In this document: in pieces, positions 3,268-4,827 of the stretch
How the letters are laid out: every line of letters begins with the position of its first letter
Position numbering within the stretch: the stretch's first letter is position 1
Source: Halothiobacillaceae bacterium
GTDB taxonomy: Bacteria; Pseudomonadota; Gammaproteobacteria; Halothiobacillales; Halothiobacillaceae
NCBI GenBank assembly: GCA_006212015.1
Contig: SDAY01000003.1
Coordinates: 1-64,000, forward strand
Direction of reading: 5' to 3'
Length of the DNA: 64,000 nucleotides
Made by a program: the position numbers and the translations under genes
The notes under the pieces: model-generated
What the model was told of the DNA's origin: nothing
Database searches by the model: none
The model's input: only the letters and a program-made list of their open reading frames with translations

Positions 3268-3954
3268 GTGATTCTTTTTCGACAGCTGTTTGACGAGGCG
3301 ACCTGGACGCTGACCTATATCCTGGCCGATGCTCGGACTCGTGAGGCCGTCATCATCGACCCCGTCATCGAGCAACGTGATCGCGATTTGAGCGTACTGC
3401 GTGAAATGGGCGTTACGCTCAAATACATACTTGAAACCCATGTGCATGCCGATCATGTCACCGGAGGAGGGGCGCTGCGGCGCGCCGCCGGGGCCATGTT
3501 TGTGGCGGGTGAGGGCACGGCGCTCGAGTGCGCGGATGTCCTCCTGGCCGATGGCGAAACGCTGGTATTCGGTGACGAGGTCATCCATGCGATGACCACG
3601 CCCGGGCATACCAATGGCTGCATGAGCTACCGCTGGCGTGACCGCTTGTTCACGGGCGACACCCTTTTGATCGATGCCTGCGGCCGCACAGATTTCCAGG
3701 AAGGCAGTCCTGACAAGCTGTATGACAGCCTGCAGAGGCTGCTGGCGCATCCGGACGAAACCCTGATTTTCCCGGGGCACGATTATAACGGCCGCAGGGT
3801 CAGCAGTGTCGCGCAGGAAAAGGGCGTCAACCCTTACGTTGCCGGACTGGATCGCGCAGCCTTCGTGGCCAGGATGGAGGCCCTGGACCTGCCGCGACCG
3901 CGTCGCATCGATGTCGCGGTTCCCGCCAACAGGAAGTGCGGGGACGCGGCCTGA
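3268..3954 (+). CDS. MBL-fold persulfide dioxygenase (ETHE1-like)
   Basis: ETHVHADHVTGGG, TPGHTNGCMSY, FTGDTLLIDACGRTDFQ and FPGHDYNGR motifs; GTG start. Confidence 0.85.
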   Translation: MILFRQLFDEATWTLTYILADARTREAVIIDPVIEQRDRDLSVLREMGVTLKYILETHVHADHVTGGGALRRAAGAMFVAGEGTALECADVLLADGETLVFGDEVIHAMTTPGHTNGCMSYRWRDRLFTGDTLLIDACGRTDFQEGSPDKLYDSLQRLLAHPDETLIFPGHDYNGRRVSSVAQEKGVNPYVAGLDRAAFVARMEALDLPRPRRIDVAVPANRKCGDAA

Positions 3955-3955
3955 G

Positions 3956-4292
3956 ATGAATCGCATCACCGTCATGGGCGCGGGATTCGCCGCACCGGGC
4001 GCCCAAGCAGGCTCGCATGGCGGACCCGCAGGCGGTGGTCGCCGCTGAAAATCGTGTGGCCGAGCTTGCCGGCAAACCTGCGGACAAGACCTTCCGCCGG
4101 GAGCTGATTTGCATCATGGTCTCCTTGAGCAAGGGCATCCTCGTCCGCCGTGACCACAAACGCACGACGATCCTCCCGCCCCGCCGTCCGCTGCATTGGG
4201 GCAAGCGCATCTTCGAGGCGAAGCACCTCGGAAACTACCGCAAAGGCGCGTTGTCTGGCGGGGCGGGCATGGGTTACGCTGATCAACCCTGA
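3956..4292 (+). pseudogene. Remnant of NAD(P)/FAD-dependent oxidoreductase (sulfide:quinone oxidoreductase-like)
   Basis: N-terminal fragment MNRITVMGAGFAA at 3956 (Rossmann GxGFA) in one frame. In another frame, the C-terminal fragment RMADPQAVVAAENRVAELAGKPADKTFRRELICIMVSLSKGILVRRDHKRTTILPPRRPLHWGKRIFEAKHLGNYRKG resembles SQR-family C-termini. The central domain is missing. Confidence 0.7.
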
Positions 4293-4296
4293 ATCC

Positions 4297-4827
4297 ATGG
4301 CCCTTCCCGTGCAGCCCGTACTCCAGCAACTCTTCGCCATCTGCCTTCTTCGGGCCGGCCCGCAGGACCTGCCCGCCGATGCGCGTTTGCCCCTCTGGCT
4401 GGCGGCGGCCTATGTCGTGGTGGGGGGGGGGGTGCTTTCCTCCGAACTGAGCTTTGGCGTCGGGGCGGCGCAAGCGGGCGCGGATGCCCTTTTGCTGGCG
4501 GCGTTCACCTGGGCGTTGCTGCGGTTTCGCGGGTTTTCATCGCGTTTCAACCAGACCTACGCCGCGCTGGTTGGCATCAACCTGCTGCTCGCCCTGCTGT
4601 CCTGGCCGCTGTTCGCCATGGCGCCGATGGACCCGGCGGCGACCCCGTTGAGCCTGCCCCAGATCGGCCTCGTCGTCGCCTTGCTGTGGACCATGATCGC
4701 CCAGGGGCAGGTGATCCGCAGCGCCATCGAGACCACGGCCGGCATCGGCCTGCTGCTGGCCTTCGTCTATTTCATCCTCGCCAGCCTGTTCATTGCCGCG
4801 GTCTTTCCGTCGGGGGGCGCGACATGA
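4297..4827 (+). CDS. Hypothetical membrane protein (about 176 aa)
   Basis: Hydrophobic ORF from MALPVQPVLQQLFAI; stop overlaps mpl start by 4 nt; contains an 11-G tract. Confidence 0.75.
   Translation: MALPVQPVLQQLFAICLLRAGPQDLPADARLPLWLAAAYVVVGGGVLSSELSFGVGAAQAGADALLLAAFTWALLRFRGFSSRFNQTYAALVGINLLLALLSWPLFAMAPMDPAATPLSLPQIGLVVALLWTMIAQGQVIRSAIETTAGIGLLLAFVYFILASLFIAAVFPSGGAT

Follow-up and report, generated by a model that had tools for sequence, protein, structure and literature searches.

The window, a 64,000-nt stretch of Halothiobacillaceae DNA, carries directly downstream of an intact ETHE1-type gene what we consider, with high confidence, to be a pseudogene of the sulfide:quinone oxidoreductase (SQR) gene sqrF, made by one out-of-frame deletion of about 839 bp, the C-terminus then drifting neutrally. 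It is an ordinary, well-supported pseudogene, and represents ordinary gene loss. The features of the locus are as follows (G000 denotes the genome of the window, other G numbers its relatives, and g2, g3 and g4 genera of the family).

3268..3954, + strand: ETHE1-type persulfide dioxygenase of 228 aa, intact; in the ancestral arrangement the partner upstream of sqrF (PDB matches, position of orthologues)
3956..3994, + strand: remnant of the sqrF 5' end, its first 13 codons (MNRITVMGAGFAA), where the FAD-binding Rossmann fold begins (match to a congener, start position relative to ETHE1)
3992..3998, + strand: out-of-frame junction left by the deletion; about 839 nt are gone, corresponding to codons ~14-293 of 375 (length compared with the intact G002, G003 and G005 genes)
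3996..4241, + strand: remnant of the sqrF 3' end, encoding the C-terminal quinone/membrane domain; eight invariant residues are broken (60-67% identity to the C-terminus of G002/G003, decay statistics)
4242..4292, + strand: read-through tail of the remnant frame past the native C-terminus (KGALSGGAGMGYADQP, then a stop); intact homologues stop here or one codon later
4299..4827, + strand: small membrane-protein ORF, downstream synteny anchor, same order in G001
after 4827, + strand: putative Mpl (to 6209), then putative UbiX, named by sequence recognition; downstream synteny anchors, same order in G001

The first segment of the remnant, MNRITVMGAGFAA, begins at 3956, one base past the ETHE1 stop codon (3952-3954), which is the site directly against the ETHE1 stop where the intact gene of G005 starts, and 10 of its 13 residues are identical to the congener sequence MSRITIIGAGFAA. 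The second segment, H-R-A-P-K-Q-A-R-M-A-D..., lies in a different frame from 3993/3996; its homology ends at 4241, while the reading (H)RAPKQARMADPQAVVAAENRVAELAGKPADKTFRRELICIMVSLSKGILVRRDHKRTTILPPRRPLHWGKRIFEAKHLGNYR runs on to a stop at 4292, the native sqrF stop being gone. In total, 13 N-terminal and about 80-83 C-terminal codons are retained, joined out of frame. The C-terminal piece matches relatives with E values as low as 1.7e-30, at 67% identity across 82 aa, and was found in 21 of the 39 relatives (22 of 40 genomes including that of the window) at 44-67% identity, each time within a longer open frame of 382-575 codons. An upstream extension of the C-terminal tblastn match into 3882-3995 was rejected as a chance out-of-frame run across the end of ETHE1. 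Neither fragment alone has a match in Pfam, NCBIfam or PDB, both being too short and too decayed, and their identification therefore depends on the intact relatives. Together, the two homologies bear out the description, in the initial annotation of this DNA, of an SQR-like remnant with its two ends in two frames.

In G002, G003 and G005, the intact gene comprises 1125 nt of sense codons up to the last homologous codon, with the Lys of the APKQ motif as residue 297, compared with 286 nt from the ATG to that codon in the window (3956-4241). The loss of most of the gene by internal deletion, as initially proposed, is thus supported. However, since the difference of 839 nt is of the 3n+2 type, a single deletion accounts for both the lost middle and the change of frame, and the separate frameshift assumed in the same annotation is unnecessary. 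Such an event would have taken codons ~14-293, that is, most of the FAD/NAD-type domains together with Cys121, and the remaining C-terminus would have drifted neutrally afterwards. No reliable microhomology is readable at the junction, for which an undeleted ancestor is lacking for comparison. The window copy does not have its FAD-binding domains intact and in a single frame, and, judged from the sequence, cannot be an enzyme with codons ~14-293 missing. The remnant frame is nevertheless open from its own ATG (4017-4292, 91 aa), and a residual peptide may be made from it.

The intact orthologues are flavoproteins of 375-379 aa, found in 20 of the 27 genomes of the same family. The protein of G002 (P0001) shows the SQR flavoprotein fold (Pyr_redox_2, PF07992, E=9.6e-20) and aligns along its whole length with sulfide:quinone reductases in PDB (3h8i at 2.6e-23, Acidithiobacillus ferrooxidans entries at about 1e-19). 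In the type VI enzyme TrSqrF of Thiocapsa roseopersicina, Cys121 serves for FAD attachment and Cys332 is flanked by apolar residues, and type VI enzymes are marked by a C-terminal domain that is short and ends in a single helix, and by a quinone site that includes Phe366 and Trp369 (PMC9666304). In the numbering of that study, Cys is present at 121 and 332 in G002, G003, G005, G007 and G013, and the pair is shifted by 4 in G008, G010 and G014. Phe366 is likewise carried at its TrSqrF number, as is Ile333 in P0001, and W369 is found in g3 and g4 but replaced by Met in G002/G003. Because Cys121, Cys332, Ile333 and Phe366 are all found at these positions and the C-terminus is short, the gene was named sqrF. 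Comparison with the published residue numbers alone would thus fit the intact orthologues to type VI SQR (SqrF), with which they share Cys121, Cys332 and its apolar flanks, Phe366 and the Pyr_redox_2 fold, and presumably the short C-terminal domain; the window copy differs in the loss of its middle part. The type I SQR of A. ferrooxidans (3sz0/3t2y) belongs to the same flavoprotein superfamily, but in comparison with it the intact orthologues lack the equivalent of Cys160 (Val/Arg instead) and have a shorter C-terminus, whereas the residues that we take to be the equivalents of Cys128 and Cys356 (type I numbering) are present. The suspicion that the relatives are not true SQRs, raised by the missing Cys160 equivalent, is settled by the type VI description and the C121/C332 pair.

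In agreement with the initial annotation, the neighbour upstream of the remnant is an intact persulfide dioxygenase of the ETHE1 type (257 bits to 9rhq, 251 bits to 4ysb and 196 bits to human ETHE1, 4chl). Its orthologues lie directly upstream of intact sqrF in G005 (sister genus), G008, G010, G014 and G012 (genus g3), and ETHE1 followed directly by intact sqrF is the arrangement of genera g2 and g3. The combination of SQR and persulfide dioxygenase constitutes a bacterial sulfide-oxidation pathway (PMC6245092), to which these related genera correspond; the window locus departs from it in that the dioxygenase is kept and the SQR half is broken. The comparison with sister genomes that had been recommended thus yielded the full-length gene in synteny, the order in G005 being phosphotransferase-like, DUF4010-like, ETHE1, intact sqrF, further genes, Mpl and UbiX. 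The window has the same order, except that sqrF is cut down to its ends; the flanking genes, including Mpl and UbiX, are presumably what their names say, these having been given by sequence recognition.

At the site adjoining ETHE1, every genome of the genus lacks an intact sqrF. The genome closest by ETHE1 (81% identity) is G001, where ETHE1 and the membrane-protein ORF lie just 153 bp apart without any trace of sqrF; in G004, no sqrF start is visible in the 38 bp between ETHE1 and the end of the contig. In G002 and G003, the site after ETHE1 is occupied by unrelated ORFs and intact sqrF is found elsewhere in both genomes, which makes this spot a candidate for variable insertion or relocation. 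The ORFs at these loci (L057 in G002, L058 in G003) are one of 425 aa, and one of 338 aa plus one of 201 aa, on the opposite strand. Two other genes were found broken, either by assembly errors or by decay: UbiX in G001, across three frames (L055, 3851-4436), and ETHE1 in G012, across two (L064, 1169-1778). In the window itself, a run of 11 G (4422-4432) within the small membrane-protein ORF could be slippage-prone or sequencing-sensitive.

The retained C-terminus has itself decayed. Over 79 C-terminal codons, with 39 columns invariant among ten intact members, the remnant breaks 8 of the 39 sites (H>R, L>P, L>R, W>R, D>V, C>R, L>P and Y>H, the C>R change affecting the Cys356 equivalent), compared with 0-4 when intact members were held out in turn. 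With G005 as the outgroup, the remnant-specific changes relative to G002 number 18 at codon positions 1+2 and 7 at position 3, whereas those specific to G002 number 6 and 22, respectively; the ratios differ significantly (Fisher p=0.0003), although this test covers 79 codons only and is partly confounded, through the third-position counts, by the difference in G+C between G002 and the window genome. The relative-rate excess of the remnant at positions 1+2 (18 versus 6) gave a binomial p=0.023. In a small tree of the C-terminal region, the remnant groups with G002/G003 (support 83) on a branch of length 0.49, compared with 0.06-0.08 for the latter two. The locus hence combines a disabling lesion that its orthologues do not have with relaxed constraint on the rest, as expected of a pseudogene. 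Given the many substitutions, the broken invariant sites, the long branch and the absence of any trace in G001, the recent loss that had been assumed is not supported, and the loss was probably not very recent.

These observations bear on the possibility that the deletion is an artefact and that the species has an intact sqrF. The draft is fragmented (227 contigs), and a collapse during assembly could in principle have produced the exact junction, but the C-terminal decay, with eight invariant-site changes (W->R, D->V and C->R among them) and with the native stop lost, argues that a collapse would not explain everything. Furthermore, the genus is without any intact sqrF at this site, and neither the missing middle nor a second copy was found elsewhere in the 99.3%-complete assembly, where only paralogues of at most 31% identity or short matches were recovered. 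An artefact is accordingly very improbable. A 45-bp DNA match at G000:C158 (E 8.5e-4) was discarded as a second copy, the protein search having found no orthologue there. Less probable still is that the 91-aa ORF at 4017-4292 encodes a functional short protein, i.e. a stand-alone membrane or quinone-binding domain: the frame is open and has its own ATG, yet the conservation of this short ORF in relatives, named at the outset as evidence against a remnant, was not observed in any of them (all matches lie within the frames of 382-575 codons), its invariant residues are broken, the FAD-binding domain is missing, and Pfam, NCBIfam and PDB give no match.

The sqrF pseudogene does not stand for the end of sulfide oxidation in this organism. 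The search of the genome for another intact sqr, also recommended initially, revealed no second sqrF but an intact type I SQR, which scores 578 bits against A. ferrooxidans SQR (G000:C170, about 71024-72295), and the same contig carries the flavin subunit of FCSD, likewise intact (about 77100-78480; 357 bits to 1fcd). The view that a sulfide-oxidation enzyme was lost is therefore correct for the type VI SqrF, whereas the type I SQR and the FCSD flavoprotein stay, so that an accessory SQR was lost and not sulfide oxidation as such. The loss would have been tolerated since sulfide oxidation is still covered by type I SQR and FCSD, and glutathione persulfide by ETHE1. Type VI SQR has been described as working at high sulfide (PMC9666304), and the loss of sqrF fits the relaxation of a high-sulfide backup rather than a loss of sulfide metabolism. 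In metabolic reconstructions, the locus should not be scored as an SQR, and no loss of sulfide oxidation should be read from it.

Across the 27 family genomes, in which intact sqrF occurs 20 times, an ETHE1 orthologue is present in 15. ETHE1 without intact sqrF was found in G000, G001, G004, G006 and G018, and G016 has neither. In genus g4, the ETHE1 orthologue is missing in all 11 genomes and sqrF is kept in 10 of them. Since either gene is found without the other, the ETHE1-sqrF pair is not obligatory. It is conceivable, though we put it forward only tentatively, that an ETHE1-SqrF pair is ancestral and has been uncoupled repeatedly within the family, SqrF alone being kept in one genus and the dioxygenase alone in others; if true, the family would serve as a natural experiment on whether the type VI SQR and the persulfide dioxygenase belong to one pathway. 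In g4 genomes (e.g. L006 and L010), where the pattern is the reciprocal one, sqrF lies near Mpl and the ETHE1 orthologue is absent. A full-length sqrF homologue (60% identity) was also noticed in Candidatus Ruthia sp., of the clam-symbiont lineage (L086, 10137-11261), about 3.5 kb downstream of an ETHE1 homologue.
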